DNA of 64,000 nt from Methanocaldococcus bathoardescens (GTDB lineage Archaea > AGJL01 > Methanococci > Methanococcales > Methanocaldococcaceae), in assembly GCF_000739065.1 (NCBI RefSeq), contig NZ_CP009149.1, forward strand, positions 1 to 64,000. The letters are read 5' to 3'. The position numbers were made by a program, and so were the translations under genes. The notes below the pieces were generated by a model. The model was not told the DNA's origin and ran no database searches. It worked only from the letters and a program-made list of their open reading frames with translations. Below are positions 10 to 8,587 of this stretch, one piece after another. Every line of letters starts with the position of its first letter. The first letter of the stretch is position 1.

Positions 10-1413
10 TTAATTTTTCTTTTTCTTCTTTTCTGGTTCTTCTTTTGTAATGATTATTTTCTCTGCCTTAATCACAGCATTGTATAGAACTATTTTTATT
101 CCTGGTGGTAATCCAGCAAATGTTCCCGGTAAAGTCATTGTTGGTACTTCAATTCCTTCAGCTTCTTCCATCTCTTCTTCAACTTCTTCCTCTTCCCCTA
201 CTGCTTTACTCTCAACCCCTATTCTCTCAGCACATGGATGTCCTTTCTCTTTCAAGAATTTAACTAACTCATCAGTAGTTTTAACGTCTTCTTCGGTTGC
301 TATCTTATCATACAACTCTTCTGGTATCGCATCTTTAACTCTCTCTTTTAACTCTTTTGGTAACCAAACTACCCTCTCCCAACCACCATCTCCTTGTAAG
401 AATTTAGGTGATTTCATGTATGCTATCGATATACCAACAAACCCTGGAACTTGCTTTCCTCCACTGCACTGTCCTGCTAATGTTGAAAATGGAATTCCCA
501 TAGGAGTTTCTCCTTTAAATCCTCTATGCGCTATCCCAAATCCATCAACTTCAGGAATGTAGAAAGCAACTGCTTCAAAACAACCACAAGATGTACATGG
601 TTTTTCTAATCCACTATGTAAAGTTACTTCTTCAACTGTTCCTTGCGACCTTTCTCTAACGACATCATTTACTCCTGAGTAAATCCCTAATTTTTCATCT
701 AAACATTCCCCTTTAGGTATTTCAAATATGGGCCCATTAGGGTCTATCTTAGCAGCTGCTCTCGCATCTAAATAATTAATTCCTCCACACAACGCTGGTC
801 TATCTGGTGTTATAACACATACATGAGTTGGGGCGAAACTTTGACACATTATACAACCATAGAATACATCAACATCTTCTTCATGTAATGCCCTTGTTCT
901 TTCATCCCTATTGTTATAGATTTCTCTTGCTTTCTCCAACTCTTCTTTAACTTTATCTGGGTCTGTAATTAATATAACATCACACTTTTCGATAAATGGA
1001 AACTCTGCCTTAAACAATCTTTGAACGACTTTACCAACATGCTCTAATCTTAGCCCTTTACCAAACGAATTCTTGTTTATCCTAATCCATACTTGGTCTC
1101 TCTGGTTTAAGTGCATAACTCCTTCTATGTAATTAAAGAACTCGTGAATTCTTCTCTCTAAAACCCCTTCTAAATCTTCTTCTAAGTTATCACCACTAAC
1201 TTGAACGATTATAGCGAATGGGTTTCTACTACCTTCTTCCATCTCATCGATATCTTTTCCGATAATTTCAACTTTATCCTCTGCTTTATCGACTACTTTA
1301 ACTAACTCAAAACCATAACTCTTAGGCCCTGCTAACTCAACATACATGTCAGGACCTCTAACTCTCTCTCCTTCATTCATCGGTCCTACTGAGACAGGGA
1401 TATCATCAAACAT
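10..1413 (-). CDS. cdhC: ACDS complex subunit beta (acetyl-CoA synthase)
   Basis: A 467-aa protein that joins a methyl group, CO and CoA into acetyl-CoA at the nickel-iron A-cluster of the acetyl-CoA decarbonylase/synthase complex. The A-cluster region is visible: Cys187/Cys190 in GCIMCQSFAP, and Cys273, Cys276 and Cys278 in CTSCGCFE. By analogy with characterised CdhC proteins the ligands are C190, C276 and C278. The C-terminus (about residues 405-467) is Glu/Lys-rich and low complexity. It lacks the N-terminal ~285 residues present in the second beta-type gene at 5059-7278. It is last in a leftward operon after the polyferredoxin, cdhB and cdhA. Two tracts are identical in DNA to the paralogue. 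Certain as a family member. Confidence 0.95.
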   Translation of the reverse strand: MFDDIPVSVGPMNEGERVRGPDMYVELAGPKSYGFELVKVVDKAEDKVEIIGKDIDEMEEGSRNPFAIIVQVSGDNLEEDLEGVLERRIHEFFNYIEGVMHLNQRDQVWIRINKNSFGKGLRLEHVGKVVQRLFKAEFPFIEKCDVILITDPDKVKEELEKAREIYNNRDERTRALHEEDVDVFYGCIMCQSFAPTHVCVITPDRPALCGGINYLDARAAAKIDPNGPIFEIPKGECLDEKLGIYSGVNDVVRERSQGTVEEVTLHSGLEKPCTSCGCFEAVAFYIPEVDGFGIAHRGFKGETPMGIPFSTLAGQCSGGKQVPGFVGISIAYMKSPKFLQGDGGWERVVWLPKELKERVKDAIPEELYDKIATEEDVKTTDELVKFLKEKGHPCAERIGVESKAVGEEEEVEEEMEEAEGIEVPTMTLPGTFAGLPPGIKIVLYNAVIKAEKIIITKEEPEKKKKKN

Positions 1414-1437: not shown

Positions 1438-1893
1438 TTATAGCTTCTCTTTAGCTTCTTCTCTTAGGATTTTCAATATCTTTTTTCTTTTCTCTTCTTT
1501 CATCATATCAAGTGTTTCTTCTGATACTAACAATAAGGCATTATCTTTACATGCTTCAATACAAGCAGGTGTTATTCTATCAGTGTCTAAGCAGAGAGTG
1601 CATTTGTGAGCAACCTTATTTTTTATAAATATTGCTCCTATAGGACAAGCAATTGCACACATTCCACAAGCTATACATCTTTCTTTTTCTACAATTGGAA
1701 TGCCATCTTTTAGATAAATTGCATCAACAGGGCAGATTTCTTTACAAGGAGCTCTTTCACACTGCATACAGAATATAGGAATGCCGTCAACTTTTCTTAC
1801 TCTACTTTCTCCATGAATCTCTTTGCAGATGTTTATGCAATCATAACATTTGGTGCATTTTTCAGGATTTAAGACAATAATTTTTGGGTTCAT
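1438..1893 (-). CDS. Polyferredoxin-like 4Fe-4S protein of the ACDS operon
   Basis: A 151-aa electron carrier with four cysteine clusters: CTKCYDCINICK near residue 13, CMQCERAPCKEICP near 42, CIACGMCAIACP near 73, and a looser CTLCLDTDRITPACIEACKD near 97. This is the HycB/CooF type of layout, suited to passing electrons to or from the CO dehydrogenase subunit. The start ATG follows GGAGGGG, which overlaps the end of cdhB; the two genes are 1 nt apart, so translation is probably coupled. It lies between cdhB and cdhC in the operon. Function as the ferredoxin partner of ACDS is inferred from position. Confidence 0.9.
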   Translation of the reverse strand: MNPKIIVLNPEKCTKCYDCINICKEIHGESRVRKVDGIPIFCMQCERAPCKEICPVDAIYLKDGIPIVEKERCIACGMCAIACPIGAIFIKNKVAHKCTLCLDTDRITPACIEACKDNALLLVSEETLDMMKEEKRKKILKILREEAKEKL

Positions 1894-1894
1894 C

Positions 1895-2335
1895 TTACCC
1901 CTCCAACAATTTCTTCAGATAATCTAAATACTCATCCTCACTGAGATTTGGGAAGGAATAGATAGTATTTGGCTGGTAATATTTGTCTATAGAAACTGTT
2001 ATCACATTTGAAAACTGTTTTAAGTGTGTTGCTGCCTGAGCTAAGTAATAGTAAGTTATTCCTGTGAATAAAGCTAAATCATAATCACTATTTGCTAAAT
2101 ATTTCATTATTGCCATTAAATTCATTTCTTCTGGTGTTTTTATTACTTTTAAGTTATATCTCTCAATTAATTTGTTAATTAACTCTTTCTCATCATTCTC
2201 TAAGTTCTCTCCCAATATTAAGATTGGTTTTTTAGCCCTTCTAATCATCATTTTAACAAGTGTTGGGGAAGTTATCTCAGCATGAGCTACATTACTTCCA
2301 GCTGTTGGGATATAGGCTATAAATCTCTCATCCAT
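1895..2335 (-). CDS. cdhB: ACDS complex subunit epsilon
   Basis: A small subunit (146 aa from the chosen start) that binds the alpha subunit of the ACDS complex and is proposed to assist electron transfer or stability of the CO dehydrogenase component. The sequence shows the family's Rossmann-like fold with the hydrophobic strands PILILGEN and LALFTGITYYYLAQ. The open frame extends 6 codons upstream to a TTG, but GGTGAT sits just before the internal ATG that begins MDERFIAYIP, so that ATG was chosen. It lies downstream of cdhA, separated by a palindromic repeat element. Confidence 0.9.
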   Translation of the reverse strand: MDERFIAYIPTAGSNVAHAEITSPTLVKMMIRRAKKPILILGENLENDEKELINKLIERYNLKVIKTPEEMNLMAIMKYLANSDYDLALFTGITYYYLAQAATHLKQFSNVITVSIDKYYQPNTIYSFPNLSEDEYLDYLKKLLEG

Positions 2336-2406
2336 CGCTATCACCAGATTCAAAAAATTAAATTAAGTTTTTCAAAAATTTAAAATTTAGATTTTAATCT
2401 CTTCAA

Positions 2407-2490: not shown

Positions 2491-4812
2491 TTAATACAGT
2501 ATAGTTGGGTCTTGTGGATATTTTTCAAGAGGTTTCCATCCTTTCTCTTCCAAGTAAGCCATTATCTTATCTTTCATCATGAAAGGAATGTCTTTTTCAG
2601 TTCTAACGAATTTTTCTAAATCAGGTGGCATCTTTCCAAAGTATTTTTCATATAAATCAACGTAGTGGTAAATCTTGTTAGCTCTACCTTTTGGATTGTC
2701 ATTTGGCCTCATACATAGCTTTGGAATCATGCAGATACATTCTTTAACATTTTCAGCAGTTACAATTAGATGTTCAGGAACGGGGTCTATCTCTAAAATT
2801 TCTCCTGTTTTTTTATCTTTAACTTTGAATTTCTCTCCATTGCTTAGGTATAGTCTTCTATACTTAGCCCCATGTGGTCCTACAATAACAGGTATTCCCC
2901 ATCTATTGACTCCAGTAGCAATTGCAGCAGCTTTTTGACTCATAGCTCCCCATGCAACTCCAACAGCTCCAACCTTGTTTAGTATGTAATCAGCAACTTC
3001 AGCATAGTTCCCTCTTAACGGAACTTTAGCAAAGATGTTAGCTATTTTTATAGCAGCTCCGGTAATGTGGCAATTTGATAGACAAGAACCACAATTTACA
3101 AGCCCTCCTGCTCTGAACTCACCTGGATATTTTTCATATAATGTTTTTCCATCTTTATCCTTCCACATTGCAATTGACATTGCAGCACAACCAGATGTTA
3201 CAACTATATATTTCCTCTCCAAGAACTCTTTTGCTATTAAGGCAACTTCTTCTTCACCATTTGGATGGTTTGAACAGCCAACTAAAGCAACAACTCCTGG
3301 GATGTCTCCAAATACAATTGGTGCCCCAACACTTCTAATTTCAACATCTTTGATAGGCCCTCTTCCAGCTCTTATCTTGAATTTTAAATCTTTGTAATAA
3401 GCTTCTCCTACTTTTGTTGTCATGCTAACTATTGGCAAATTCCTTGGACAGATTGTTTCACATCTTCCACAGCTGTAACATTTTTTGTATAAATCAACAA
3501 ATCCATCAAAATTACCTTGTTTTGCTAAAGTCATTGCTTCTTTAACCTTAAATGCGTTAGGACAGTTTCTGTTACACCATCCACATTCAGTGCATTGCTT
3601 TGCCAATTCAACAACTTCATTTAAATCTGGTAGAGTCTTTCTGTCCTTTCTTTCTTTAGCAACTATTTTAGCAACTTCAACAGCAACTTTTCCAACTTTT
3701 TCTTCATCTAAAATTAAAGCTGCTCTATTTCTTAATAAGTAGCCAATAATTTCATCTTCACTTAAATGTGAAACATCCTCTAAACCTAAGCACATCTTTT
3801 CATTTGTTGCAATCAACACAGCCCCAGTTTTTAAAACCTCTTCTAAAATATCTGTTCTAATACACTGCTCATCTACAACAACAACATCTGCAACTCCACT
3901 TCTAACAAACATCAACTGTCTTGATAAAGGCCCAACAATCTTTGCTTTATCTGAAACTCTTGAGATATCTATAGCTGTACAGCAGATACCACAAACCTCT
4001 ACATCATCTTCCATATTATTTTCTTCTAAATATTCCAATATATAACTACCTGGAACTACATTATGCCCTATACATAAGATAACCGGCTTACTCTTATCTA
4101 TACAACCAAATCCTAACTCTATCAAAGGAGCGTCTTCATCTCCTTTTGGCATGTTGTAAGCAACTATTTGAGCTATATCTCCAACTTCCCTTGCTAAATC
4201 ATCAATCATTCCTGCATGGAATGCTTTACTCTCAAAATCTAAGTAATCTCCCTCTTGTCCAGTATGTGCTGCTGATAAGAGATGAGTTATTTGCTCTTCA
4301 CAATAATCTAAAATTTTCTCTAAATCTCCTAAAGTTTTTGGTCTAATGCCCATGACAGTTCTTGTTATTGGTGCTTCAACCTCTATCTCATTGCCTAAAT
4401 TAATTGGATAGTCCTTCCCTAACTTTTCAATTAGGTGATGAACTAAATGCCTACTATGCCCTGTGTGACATGCAGTCCCAATACAGCAAGCGATTAAAAC
4501 TATCCTTGCCTGTTGTGCTTTAATATTTAAACCACAAGCCCCTTTCTTTCCTCTGCTTAAATCACACTTTCCAAATGTACATAAACAACACAAATCACAG
4601 ATTGGCATATAAAAGGGAGGATATCTTTCCAATAGTTTAAAATCCCAATGTCTTAATGTAGGAACTTTTGGTTTTGGTGTAGGTCCCATTGGTTCCCAAT
4701 CTTCTTCCTCCTCTGCTTCACCAAACTTTACACTCATTGATATATTGGCGTTTTTCATCTTAACTAAAGGCGTGAGAAGTTTTTTGACATCCATTTCTAT
4801 GTTATTCCCCAT
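2491..4812 (-). CDS. cdhA: ACDS complex subunit alpha (nickel CO dehydrogenase)
   Basis: A ~773-aa subunit that interconverts CO and CO2 at the Ni-Fe-S C-cluster and supplies CO to the acetyl-CoA synthase subunit. N-terminal cysteines [14 protein letters not shown] bind the B/D clusters. Two ferredoxin-type clusters follow, [12 protein letters not shown] near residue 411 and [12 protein letters not shown] near 448. C-terminal CGSCLSNCH and [10 protein letters not shown] belong to the catalytic domain. Possible starts are GTG 4821, ATG 4818 and ATG 4812; GTGAT four nt upstream favours 4812. It is the first gene of a leftward operon. A TATA-like TTTATATATC (minus strand) lies near 4875-4885, and an operator-like palindrome lies further upstream at 4952-4966. 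Confidence 0.95.
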
Positions 4813-4951
4813 AACCATCACTTCTTAATTGTCATGATTAATCATTATAATTCTAAGGTTAGTTTGTAAGACTTTGATATATAAACTTTGTTATGATGAA
4901 AATCTATTTTGGTATGAAAATAAGGATTAAATTTCTCTCTCTAATAAAAAA

Positions 4952-5058: not shown

Positions 5059-7278
5059 TTACTTCTTTACATTAAAGTTAATAACTATCTTAACATTTTT
5101 CATAATAATCTGAATTCCTCCCTCTTTTGCTAACTTAGTTATCATTTCACCAACTTCAAGCCCTTCTTTCTCTTCTTTTTCAGCTACTACTGTTTCTTCT
5201 TTTTCTTCTACCTCTTCAGCAACATCTTCTGATTTCTTAACTATTGGATGTCCTTTCTCTTTCAAGAATTTAACTAACTCATCAGTAGTTTTAACGTCTT
5301 CTTCGGTTGCTATCTTATCATACAACTCTTCTGGTATCGCATCTTTAACTCTCTCTTTTAACTCTTTTGGTAACCAAACTACCCTCTCCCAACCACCATC
5401 TCCTTGTAAGAATTTAGGTGATTTCATGTATGCTATCGATATACCAACAAACCCTGGAACTTGCTTTCCTCCACTGCATTGCCCAGCAAGAGATGAGAAT
5501 GGCAATCCGAAAGGAGTTTCTCCCCTAAAGTTTCTATGCACTACTCCAAACCCATCTACATCTAGAATATAGAAGACAATTGCCTCAAAACAACCACAAG
5601 ATGTACATGGGTTAGTTAAGGCACTATGCAATGCCATTTCTTCTACACTACCCTGCGACCTTTCTCTAACAACGTCATTTATTCCAGAATAAACTCCTAA
5701 TTTTTCATCTAAACATTCCCCTTTTGGTATCTCAAATATTGGTCCATTAGGGTCTATCTTTGCTGCAGCTCTCGCATCTAAGTAGTTTATACTACCACAT
5801 AGTGAAGGTCTATCTGGGGTTATAACACATACGTGTGTTGGGGCAAAACTTTGACACATTATACAACCATAGAATACATCAACATCTTCTTCTCTTATAG
5901 ATTTTGTTTTTTCATCCCTCTTCTTGTAAATTTCTTTTGCTTTTTCTAATTCTTCCTTAACTTTATCAGGGTCGGTTATTATAATTACGTCACATTTTTC
6001 TATTATTGGGAAATGCTCTTTAAAGAGCTGTTTTACGACCTCACCAATGTGTTTTAACCTTAGCCCCTTATTAAACGAATTCTTGTTTATCCTAATCCAT
6101 ACTTGGTCTCTCTGGTTTAAGTGCATAACTCCTTCTATGTAATTAAAGAACTCGTGAATTCTTCTCTCTAAAACCCCTTCTAAATCTTCTTCTAAGTTAT
6201 CACCACTAACTTGAACGATTATAGCGAATGGGTTTCTACTACCTTCTTCCATCTCATCGATATCTTTTCCGATAATTTCAACTTTATCCTCTGCTTTATC
6301 GACTACTTTAACTAACTCAAAACCATAACTCTTAGGCCCTGCTAACTCAACATACATGTCAGGACCTCTAACTCTCTCTCCTTCATTCATCGGTCCTACT
6401 GAGACAGGGATATCAAACTCAACAACTTTAACCTCAACACCTTTCATTTTTAGAGCATTTTCTATTATGTTATCAATATCTGAACTCTCTAAAGCTCCTT
6501 CAATAACTGGCACTTCATTGTTGGTTATAACTGGGACCCCTGCCTTTATACACCCAGCCCCAGCGGCTAAAGTTATATCATCTAACTCACCTAAAGCTAC
6601 AACAATAGCTGGGACTCTGTTTTTTAAATAATCAATAATCTCTTCCACTTTTCCTGGTTCAATTCCACCAAAGATTAATGGGGCTCTTATAGCTAAGTTT
6701 GCTGCGTGTATTGCTGAAGTTATTTCCTCACCAATAGGAACAAGTAATTTATCTAAGCCATATTCAATTCCTGCTTCATCCATTTCTTTAATTATATCCC
6801 CAACTAATAATGCCAAAATGTTTCTCTTTTTTATGTCATCAATGAGTTTCTTTAGTTTATCTTTATCCCCAACTTTTCCAATAACTACTAAAATAGCTGG
6901 AATCTTACCTTCAACAAGTGGAACCCCCAAACCTCTCAATATCTCATCTGGAATAAAGCCAACATACGGCTCTTTATATGGTTTATCACTCTTTGCATAT
7001 TTTAATGCCTCAATTGCCTCAGCACATATTAAAGTTACAACACCAGCATCTAAGGCATTTTCTAAGCTCTCTTCTTCTTTTATTTCAAGTGAATTAATTA
7101 ATTCTTTTAAATCTTTAACTGTCTCTACTTTTTTTCCTAAAAGTCCATATATAATTGGCAGATTGTAGTTTGTTCCAGGATATGATACCTTTAAATTATC
7201 ATCTTCCTTCTCTAAAATCTCTTTTGTTAGCTTTAGAGCTGTTTTTCCACCTTCTATTATGTTGCTTACAACCATCAT
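5059..7278 (-). CDS. Long-form acetyl-CoA synthase beta (AcsB-like, with N-terminal domain)
   Basis: A 739-aa paralogue of CdhC. Residues ~1-285 form an extra domain resembling the N-terminal, CODH-contacting domain of bacterial AcsB; residues ~286-739 match CdhC. A-cluster cysteines are conserved: C475 in CIMCQSFAP, C561 and C563 in CTSCGCFE. A Glu/Val-rich linker precedes a short hydrophobic C-terminus. ATG 7278 follows GGTGA closely and a second ATG lies at 7275. It has its own promoter (TATA 7348-7358) and operator. M. jannaschii also has both long and short forms, as I recall. Why both are kept is unknown; two portions of its coding DNA are identical to cdhC. Confidence 0.93.
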   Translation of the reverse strand: MMVVSNIIEGGKTALKLTKEILEKEDDNLKVSYPGTNYNLPIIYGLLGKKVETVKDLKELINSLEIKEEESLENALDAGVVTLICAEAIEALKYAKSDKPYKEPYVGFIPDEILRGLGVPLVEGKIPAILVVIGKVGDKDKLKKLIDDIKKRNILALLVGDIIKEMDEAGIEYGLDKLLVPIGEEITSAIHAANLAIRAPLIFGGIEPGKVEEIIDYLKNRVPAIVVALGELDDITLAAGAGCIKAGVPVITNNEVPVIEGALESSDIDNIIENALKMKGVEVKVVEFDIPVSVGPMNEGERVRGPDMYVELAGPKSYGFELVKVVDKAEDKVEIIGKDIDEMEEGSRNPFAIIVQVSGDNLEEDLEGVLERRIHEFFNYIEGVMHLNQRDQVWIRINKNSFNKGLRLKHIGEVVKQLFKEHFPIIEKCDVIIITDPDKVKEELEKAKEIYKKRDEKTKSIREEDVDVFYGCIMCQSFAPTHVCVITPDRPSLCGSINYLDARAAAKIDPNGPIFEIPKGECLDEKLGVYSGINDVVRERSQGSVEEMALHSALTNPCTSCGCFEAIVFYILDVDGFGVVHRNFRGETPFGLPFSSLAGQCSGGKQVPGFVGISIAYMKSPKFLQGDGGWERVVWLPKELKERVKDAIPEELYDKIATEEDVKTTDELVKFLKEKGHPIVKKSEDVAEEVEEKEETVVAEKEEKEGLEVGEMITKLAKEGGIQIIMKNVKIVINFNVKK

Positions 7279-7555: not shown

Positions 7556-8002
7556 TTATATTGGCATCTTACTACCATCTTTAAAAGTCCTTAATACGAG
7601 AGTTACCTTACATCCGTTAACATTAACTAATGGATATATCTTCTCTGCCAAAAAGTTCCCTAAACTTTCCATATCCTTTAAAATTGCTATACAGACAGCA
7701 TCATATTCTCCAGTTGTTTGATAAAGCTCTACAATTTCATCAAGCTCTTTTAATTTATTGAGCGTTTCTTCAACCTTAGATGGCTTTATATATAAACCTA
7801 AAATAGCCACAACTTCAAACCCTAAATTTTTTGGATTTATGGATGCATGAAAACCTGTTATAATACCATTTTCAATCATTTTTTTTACTCTATTTCTTAC
7901 AGTCCCCTCACTAATCCCCAATTCCCTCCCAATCTCTCTAAATGATTTTCTGGCATTTTCATTTAAAATTCTTAGGATTTTTAAATCAATCCTGTCAATC
8001 AT
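7556..8002 (-). CDS. Lrp/AsnC-family transcriptional regulator
   Basis: A 148-aa regulator. Residues ~1-60 are a winged helix-turn-helix (LKILRILNENARKSFREIG, then SEGTVRNRVKKMIENGII); residues ~65-145 form the RAM ligand-binding/oligomerisation domain (VVAILGLYIK, YDAVCIAILKD). The size and sequence are those of the Ptr-type Lrp activators of Methanocaldococcus; I believe the M. jannaschii equivalent in this position is Ptr1 (from memory). It lies 4 nt after the V4R gene at 8007-8513 and is probably co-transcribed with it. Likely targets, by proximity and by the shared palindromes, are the two ACDS transcription units to its left. Confidence 0.92.
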   Translation of the reverse strand: MIDRIDLKILRILNENARKSFREIGRELGISEGTVRNRVKKMIENGIITGFHASINPKNLGFEVVAILGLYIKPSKVEETLNKLKELDEIVELYQTTGEYDAVCIAILKDMESLGNFLAEKIYPLVNVNGCKVTLVLRTFKDGSKMPI

Positions 8003-8006
8003 TTAA

Positions 8007-8513
8007 TCACCAATACAATCTATCTTCAATCTTTACCAAAAATTCGCAGTATTCATCCCCATTACCACAGCATTTTACTTCAACAGCATTAACTTTCCTT
8101 CTCAGCTTTTTTTCTAAGGTTCCTGCTATTAATCCTGCTTCAAAATGACATAGAGTTGTGCCAACATTTGGAACGTTATGGCAAGAGATGCAATCTTTTA
8201 AAATTAACACCATTTCATCTTCATCAACTTTTTTTGTCTCTAAAATTCCAATCTTTGCCTTCTTTAATATCTCTGCAAAGCTTTCAAGTAAGTTAGATTC
8301 ATCAACACATCTGGAAATTACTTCCTTACCAATGTCTTTTCCAATATTGTAAATTATTGCTTCAATTCCACAACCAGCGGTTAAAACCCCTATCCTTACT
8401 GCCTGAAATATAGATAAAGGTATTAAATTTCCTAATGTTCTCTCTGGGGGGTTATTATTTATTAAATCTTTAATATCTTTCCTGATTTTTTTATGCAAAA
8501 GTTCTTTGTCCAT
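8007..8513 (-). CDS. V4R (4-vinyl reductase) domain sensor-like protein
   Basis: A 168-aa protein. Its second half carries the V4R pattern: CISCHNVPNVGTTLCHFEAG followed by VEVKCCGNGDEYCEF, with cysteines that in relatives bind a metal or small hydrophobic ligand. The first half (IFQAVRIGVLTAGCGIEAIIY) is helical and typical of this group. An upstream in-frame ATG at 8525 has no ribosome site, while GAGGGAT precedes the ATG at 8513. It sits immediately upstream of, and in one operon with, the Lrp-type regulator, so a ligand-sensing or chaperone role in the same circuit is plausible but unproven. Confidence 0.85.
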   Translation of the reverse strand: MDKELLHKKIRKDIKDLINNNPPERTLGNLIPLSIFQAVRIGVLTAGCGIEAIIYNIGKDIGKEVISRCVDESNLLESFAEILKKAKIGILETKKVDEDEMVLILKDCISCHNVPNVGTTLCHFEAGLIAGTLEKKLRRKVNAVEVKCCGNGDEYCEFLVKIEDRLYW

Positions 8514-8587
8514 GCTATCCCTCATATAGTCAATAATTTATATGATGATGATTTACTCATTAAGTAAAACTTATTTATTCTGATACT

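Follow-up and report, generated by a model that had tools for sequence, protein, structure and literature searches.

Long-lasting recurrent concerted evolution was found in a survey for 26 prokaryotic genes, including tuf, psbA, and amoCAB, and cdhC/acsB is absent from this set (PMC6053082). Among methanogens, domain-limited concerted evolution is described for the paralogues mtrA-1 and mtrA-2 of Methanococcales and Methanomicrobiales (PMC4632066). The A1-type domain of the bacterial acetyl-CoA synthase (ACS) holds four of the five CO alcove residues, and CdhC is devoid of this domain (PMC11321310).

We analysed a window of 64,000 nucleotides (contig NZ_CP009149.1, positions 1 to 64,000) of Methanocaldococcus bathoardescens, the genome of which is a single contig of 1,607,556 bases. 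The window contains two ACS genes, designated here S (short cdhC) and L (long AcsB-type paralogue). As with mtrA-1/mtrA-2 (PMC4632066), these are ancient paralogues of methanogens, belonging to the same order, in which a shared domain appears to be homogenised by recurrent conversion and other parts differ. Unlike in that pair, the spared segment of S and L lies inside the shared catalytic core, between the converted tracts, and is not a non-homologous domain; furthermore, S and L are often unlinked. With the 26-gene set (PMC6053082), they have in common paralogues more alike within than between species and a conserved synteny, but the conversion between S and L is partial and mosaic. S/L is thus a new case of the known domain-limited concerted evolution, in which a spared active-site segment within a converted core is unusual. 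A second mtrA, intended as a positive control for conversion, was not available: the search of the window genome for the MtrA family gave one match only. The two genes and their neighbours are as follows:

10-1413, minus strand: gene S, cdhC, ACDS/ACS beta subunit, 467 aa (TIGR00316, 873.6 bits; PF03598 and PF19436)
1438-1893, minus strand: polyferredoxin-type gene of the S operon (Fer4 families; order cdhA-cdhB-fd-S conserved)
1895-2353, minus strand: cdhB, epsilon subunit (TIGR00315)
2491-4821, minus strand: cdhA, CODH alpha subunit (TIGR00314, 1418.6 bits)
5059-7278, minus strand: gene L, long acetyl-CoA synthase of AcsB-like architecture, 739 aa (NF007078, NF040764; PF18537, PF03598, and PF19436)
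6424-7278, minus strand: N-terminal (A1-type) domain, present only in L (PF18537; orthologous across species)

The product of S scored above the cut-off of TIGR00316 and contained the CdhC and ACS_CODH_B_C domains, and its gene forms an operon with cdhA and cdhB. In archaea, proteins of this type supply the ACS component of the complex of five subunits. In length, domains, and operon partners, S matches CdhC of M. thermophila (9c0s_E) but, unlike the latter, possesses identical tracts in common with a second, longer ACS gene. L was above the cut-offs of the full-length models for AcsB-type bifunctional ACS with an N-terminal CODH-binding/tunnel domain (NF007078, 1060 bits with a cut-off of 809; NF040764, 939 with a cut-off of 800). 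Like bacterial AcsB (7zkj, 6ytt, 1oao), it has an A1-type N-terminal domain, the core domains, and six A-cluster cysteines; unlike bacterial AcsB, it has a core of the Methanococcales CdhC type (about 45% to bacterial cores) and an archaeal acidic tail, and it coexists with S. The N-terminal domain of L aligned to the bacterial ACS 7zkj_B and 6ytt_A, with matches to bacterial A1 segments around G-V-P-L-V (118-122) and I-F-G-G (202-205), and by this alignment the two segments putatively carry the CO alcove residues. The AlphaFold2 model of L had a mean pLDDT of 80.1. The literature search for the presumed locus tags MJ0152/MJ0156 yielded no papers. Directly upstream of L (7556-8525), an Lrp/AsnC-type regulator and a V4R-domain protein are encoded, which accompany L in most related loci. 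In genome G001, which is without L, truB directly adjoins cdhA, and the Lrp/AsnC-type and V4R genes are both gone. These two proteins may regulate the long ACS.

The core common to S and L comprises 391 codons (1173 nt) and is divided into the following parts:

1063-1405, minus strand: tract N in S (5' part of the cdhC core), 343/343 identical to 6073-6415
6073-6415, minus strand: tract N in L, identical to 1063-1405
469-1062, minus strand: unconverted middle of the S core, 127/594 differences, containing all seven order-wide S/L diagnostic codons
5479-6072, minus strand: unconverted middle of the L core, with L-type E421, H422, I425, S492, S496, F590, and L592
235-468, minus strand: tract C in S (3' part of the cdhC core), 234/234 identical to 5245-5478
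5245-5478, minus strand: tract C in L, identical to 235-468
1006-1008, 1003-1005, 994-996, 793-795, 781-783, 499-501, and 493-495, minus strand: the seven S/L diagnostic codons in S (diagnostic columns)

A sequence-only reading of the window had reported the exact identity of the 234-nt and 343-nt tracts and a clearly diverged segment of about 594 bp, of equal length in both genes, between them. The coordinates of the tracts were reproduced precisely, and the middle aligned without gaps at a constant S-L offset of 5010, with 127 mismatches; third codon positions account for 84 of these, first positions for 28, and second positions for 15. Homology between S and L stops within a few codons outside 235-1405, and both the left and right flanks are unrelated. 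Tracts N and C therefore reach the edges of homology, i.e., both ends are identical and the middle is diverged. None of 20,000 shuffles of the 553 genus-variable sites produced stretches of concordance as long as the top two (153 and 106 sites). At four-fold degenerate sites, S and L of the window genome showed 0/33 and 0/27 differences in the two tracts, and S of the window genome differed from S of genome G003 at 13/33 and 9/25 sites; in total, 0/60 within the genome compares with 30-68% between species. Purifying selection as the cause of tract identity is ruled out because these sites show 0/60 differences within the genome vs. 22/58 between the S genes of the window genome (G000) and G003. 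The expectation that converted tracts be more alike within a genome than between orthologues also held, with 100% identity within vs. 87-88% to the orthologues of the nearest species.

PF03598 was searched in 36 Methanococcales genomes, followed by alignment of S and L; 14 genomes gave both genes. Seven of the genomes with both S and L are presumably Methanocaldococcus (G000, G002, G003, G004, G005, G006, and G013), the genus label of the comparison genomes being presumed from sequence. Identical S/L runs were located at the same two ends in G003 (332 and 254 nt), G013 (395 and 245 nt), and G006 (769 and 240 nt). In G004, S and L were identical over all 1173 nt, although one gene lies at 217 kb and the other, on the opposite strand, at 850 kb. 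The S/L core of G002 was 98.1% identical, with the genes also far apart, and G005 had short identical runs only. The tract sequences were private to each species in six Methanocaldococcus genomes; therefore, each tract was made after the species split. Orthologues sharing the tract sequence gene by gene, which would speak against conversion, were looked for, and the sequence was found to differ elsewhere.

In the trees of the N and C segments, S and L paired by species and not by gene in six of the seven genomes with both genes, even when more than 200 kb separates the two. Enforcing S and L clades on the end tracts of G000, G003, G006, and G013 cost 328 and 246 lnL units (AU p 1.9e-47 and 6.4e-61). 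In the tree of the middle, L of the window genome grouped with L of G003, and pairing by species was rejected (AU p 0.002). Strict S/L clades over the four mosaic species (G000, G003, G006, and G013) were also rejected in the middle (p 0.006), as expected because partial conversions occurred there in G006 and G013. By the AU tests, segments of the same S and L genes thus support conflicting trees, i.e., the topology is mosaic. The gene orders truB-V4R-Lrp-L and cdhA-cdhB-fd-S were common to the window genome, G003, G006, G004, G005, G034, and G035; the same applied to G013, with truB not seen in the stretch read. The N-domain of L was 93.5% identical to that of G003 and 87.7% to that of G013, and is as conserved as cdhA (93.5 and 93.9% to G003, respectively). 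In the protein tree, L formed a clade that branched outside these genera's S genes. Synteny and the L clade indicate that the S/L duplication predates the species.

Several further ACS loci were recorded in the comparison set. In L013 (2832-5023; also in L049), the reading frame of the long gene changes inside the core, through either a frameshift or a sequence error, so that the gene occupies two frames. In L007 (15724-16437), a second partial cdhC, 60% identical and on the other strand, lies at the contig end and is possibly the end of the L gene of that genome. In a Thermoplasmatota archaeon (L014, 6100-10236), an open frame encodes 1379 aa, in which about 677 extra residues precede an L-like ACS (38% in the N-domain, 46% in the core), possibly as a fusion.

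Identity of this kind could be produced by an assembly or consensus error if short reads of one copy had polished both, and the sequencing method of the window genome was not found in our literature search. However, the same pattern was present in four separately sequenced genomes, the copies of G004 lie more than 600 kb apart on opposite strands, and in the window genome each copy sits between unique flanks within a single contig. Nor are species-specific tract lengths abutting diagnostic codons expected from a false consensus. Assembly collapse, which the sequence-only reading had named as a possible refutation, is very improbable, as the pattern recurs in independent genomes, also with unlinked genes. 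The pairing of the end tracts by species would also fit a lineage-specific re-duplication of cdhC into L with later divergence of the middle, but the N-domain and the neighbours of L are conserved, its clade predates these genera, and a duplication would not be expected to leave divergence in the middle alone. Species-specific re-duplication was rejected by synteny, N-domain orthology, and the L clade in the middle, and its probability is practically negligible. Both genes being mosaic, the copies could also have become different by import of a foreign middle through allelic recombination with another species; the trees rejected this explanation, which is hardly credible: at ordinary distances, each middle joins its own gene type, S or L, from the nearest species. 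The gene conversion originally proposed for the two tracts gained support from its recurrence, the species-wise pairing of the ends, and the conserved synteny, and on this comparative evidence real, recurrent gene conversion between S and L is almost certain.

The direction of conversion was read from 23 sites with S/L-separating residues taken from other genera. The ends of L in the window genome are largely S-type (F31, K35, V37, K44, and L78), including AYMK where unconverted L has EYMR; S-type residues have taken the place there of C31, K/N37, G/T44, and EYMR, which mark L across the order. The middle of the same gene stays L-type, with E, H, and I at core positions 133, 134, and 137, S and S at 204 and 208, and F and L at 302 and 304. 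Therefore, at least within the lineage, S sequence probably replaced the ends of L. At some end sites, both genes of the window genome are L-type, and older transfers may accordingly have gone in either direction. Judging from these residues, conversion would have proceeded mainly from S to L. In G004, the N part and the middle came from S, with 93-97% to S of G005 vs. 83-88% to L of G005.

All seven residues separating S from L in every unconverted genome used (three genera) fall in the middle. The dN of this segment between S and L was 0.123 vs. 0.038 for S orthologues and 0.030 for L orthologues, i.e., 3-4 times higher; dS was 1.03 vs. 0.96 and 1.45 for the orthologues and was not clearly higher. 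At core nt 780-930, dN was 0.23 vs. 0.04, with a lower dS. Nonsynonymous to synonymous counts in the middle were 52:74 between S and L vs. 17:72 for orthologues (Fisher p 0.0006). The finest mosaic was observed in G013. Its N tract ends immediately ahead of diagnostic codon 133 (core nt 397), and its C tract begins after codon 304; core nt 525-778 are identical except for one further base and a 19-nt island (611-629), which covers the Ala/Ser and Gly/Ser codons flanking an A-cluster cysteine (C494 in L). All seven diagnostic codons of G013 are inside unconverted islands making up 22% of the core (circular shift p 0.008). The same test gave p 0.06 for the window genome and 0.04 for G003, which is weak since the sites were partly chosen using these two genomes, and failed in G006 (p 0.41); it is convincing for G013 only.

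The unconverted sites carry paralogue-specific residues conserved across lineages, from which G002, G004, and G006 depart. The whole core of G002 and G004 is homogenised, mostly to S-type, and in G006 the L-type residues 204/208 were copied into S and the S-type residues 133-137 into L. Two ACS types are therefore not needed in every species. Residues of the L-type are not unique to L: Ser at core position 204 is present in CdhC of M. thermophila, and Ser at 208 in the ACS of L012 and L021. The L-only genomes G022 and G033 have S-type residues at the diagnostic sites, which fits a requirement for the S type where only one ACS is present. In G033 and G022 (L080 6731-9001, L081 8226-5938), the single ACS gene combines the L N-domain with an S-type core and is located behind cdhA-cdhB-fd. 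In G029 and G023 (L004 6500-10395, L065 3035-6916), L and S stand side by side in tandem behind cdhA-cdhB-fd, and G029 has a 149-nt identical S/L run inside the middle. Since L and S are in tandem in the relatives G023 and G029, the single gene of G022 and G033 likely originated by an L/S crossover.

The sparing of the middle could be neutral. Conversion would be real, and the middle would simply be too diverged for strand exchange, with no functional difference needed; the C tracts of G000, G003, G006, and G013 start within 25 nt of each other (core nt 939, 915, 933, and 927), as an inherited heterology barrier would give. Nevertheless, conversion passed through all or part of the middle in G004, G002, and G006, and tracts are present inside the middle of G013 and G029, yet they spare the diagnostic codons. 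Moreover, the surplus of amino-acid change between S and L over orthologues, at a silent divergence that is similar or lower, is not predicted by a neutral barrier. We consider the neutral barrier rather unlikely. The best explanation of the spared segment, and one that we moderately favour from these comparisons, is selection protecting the middle and keeping two ACS types. The functional specialisation of the middle suggested by the sequence-only reading is backed by the order-wide diagnostic residues and the excess of amino-acid divergence, which fall short of proof. Its other suggestion, an interrupted conversion tract, does not suffice by itself, given that several species spare this same middle.

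The following mechanism is proposed for the S/L pair. S (cdhC) and L (ACS of AcsB architecture) are old Methanococcales paralogues, between which homologous recombination without crossover would repeatedly copy stretches of the core. Frequent conversion would be supplied by recombination proteins and cell polyploidy, as in archaea in general. Conversion occurred independently in the window genome and at least five other Methanocaldococcus lineages, probably mainly from S to L, and recently in the window genome. The ends of the core would be freely homogenised, and conversions overwriting the middle would be mostly removed because L retains residues of its own both around the A-cluster and in the latter half of ACS domain A2. 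S would act in the CdhABC(DE) complex and L with its own A1/CO-tunnel domain, and the residues of the middle would tune the A-cluster site of L or its interface to the tunnel domain. As a whole, this explanation, with old paralogues, recurrent conversion, and a middle kept distinct by selection, appears likely to us. The middle stays different independently in several species; therefore, the S and L enzymes probably do slightly different jobs.

With S and L, the central enzyme of archaeal CO2 fixation joins the few genes known to undergo recurrent gene conversion, and whole-gene CdhC/AcsB trees in Methanococcales mix two histories. The unconverted codons are candidate residues separating the archaeal-type ACS from the ACS of AcsB architecture in one cell. 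Tentatively, hyperthermophilic methanogens may keep two acetyl-CoA synthases, one of the archaeal type and one with the bacterial-type tunnel domain, the cores of which would be continually rewritten except for a few residues near the A-cluster, and the conversion tracts may map the type-determining active-site residues at near single-codon resolution.
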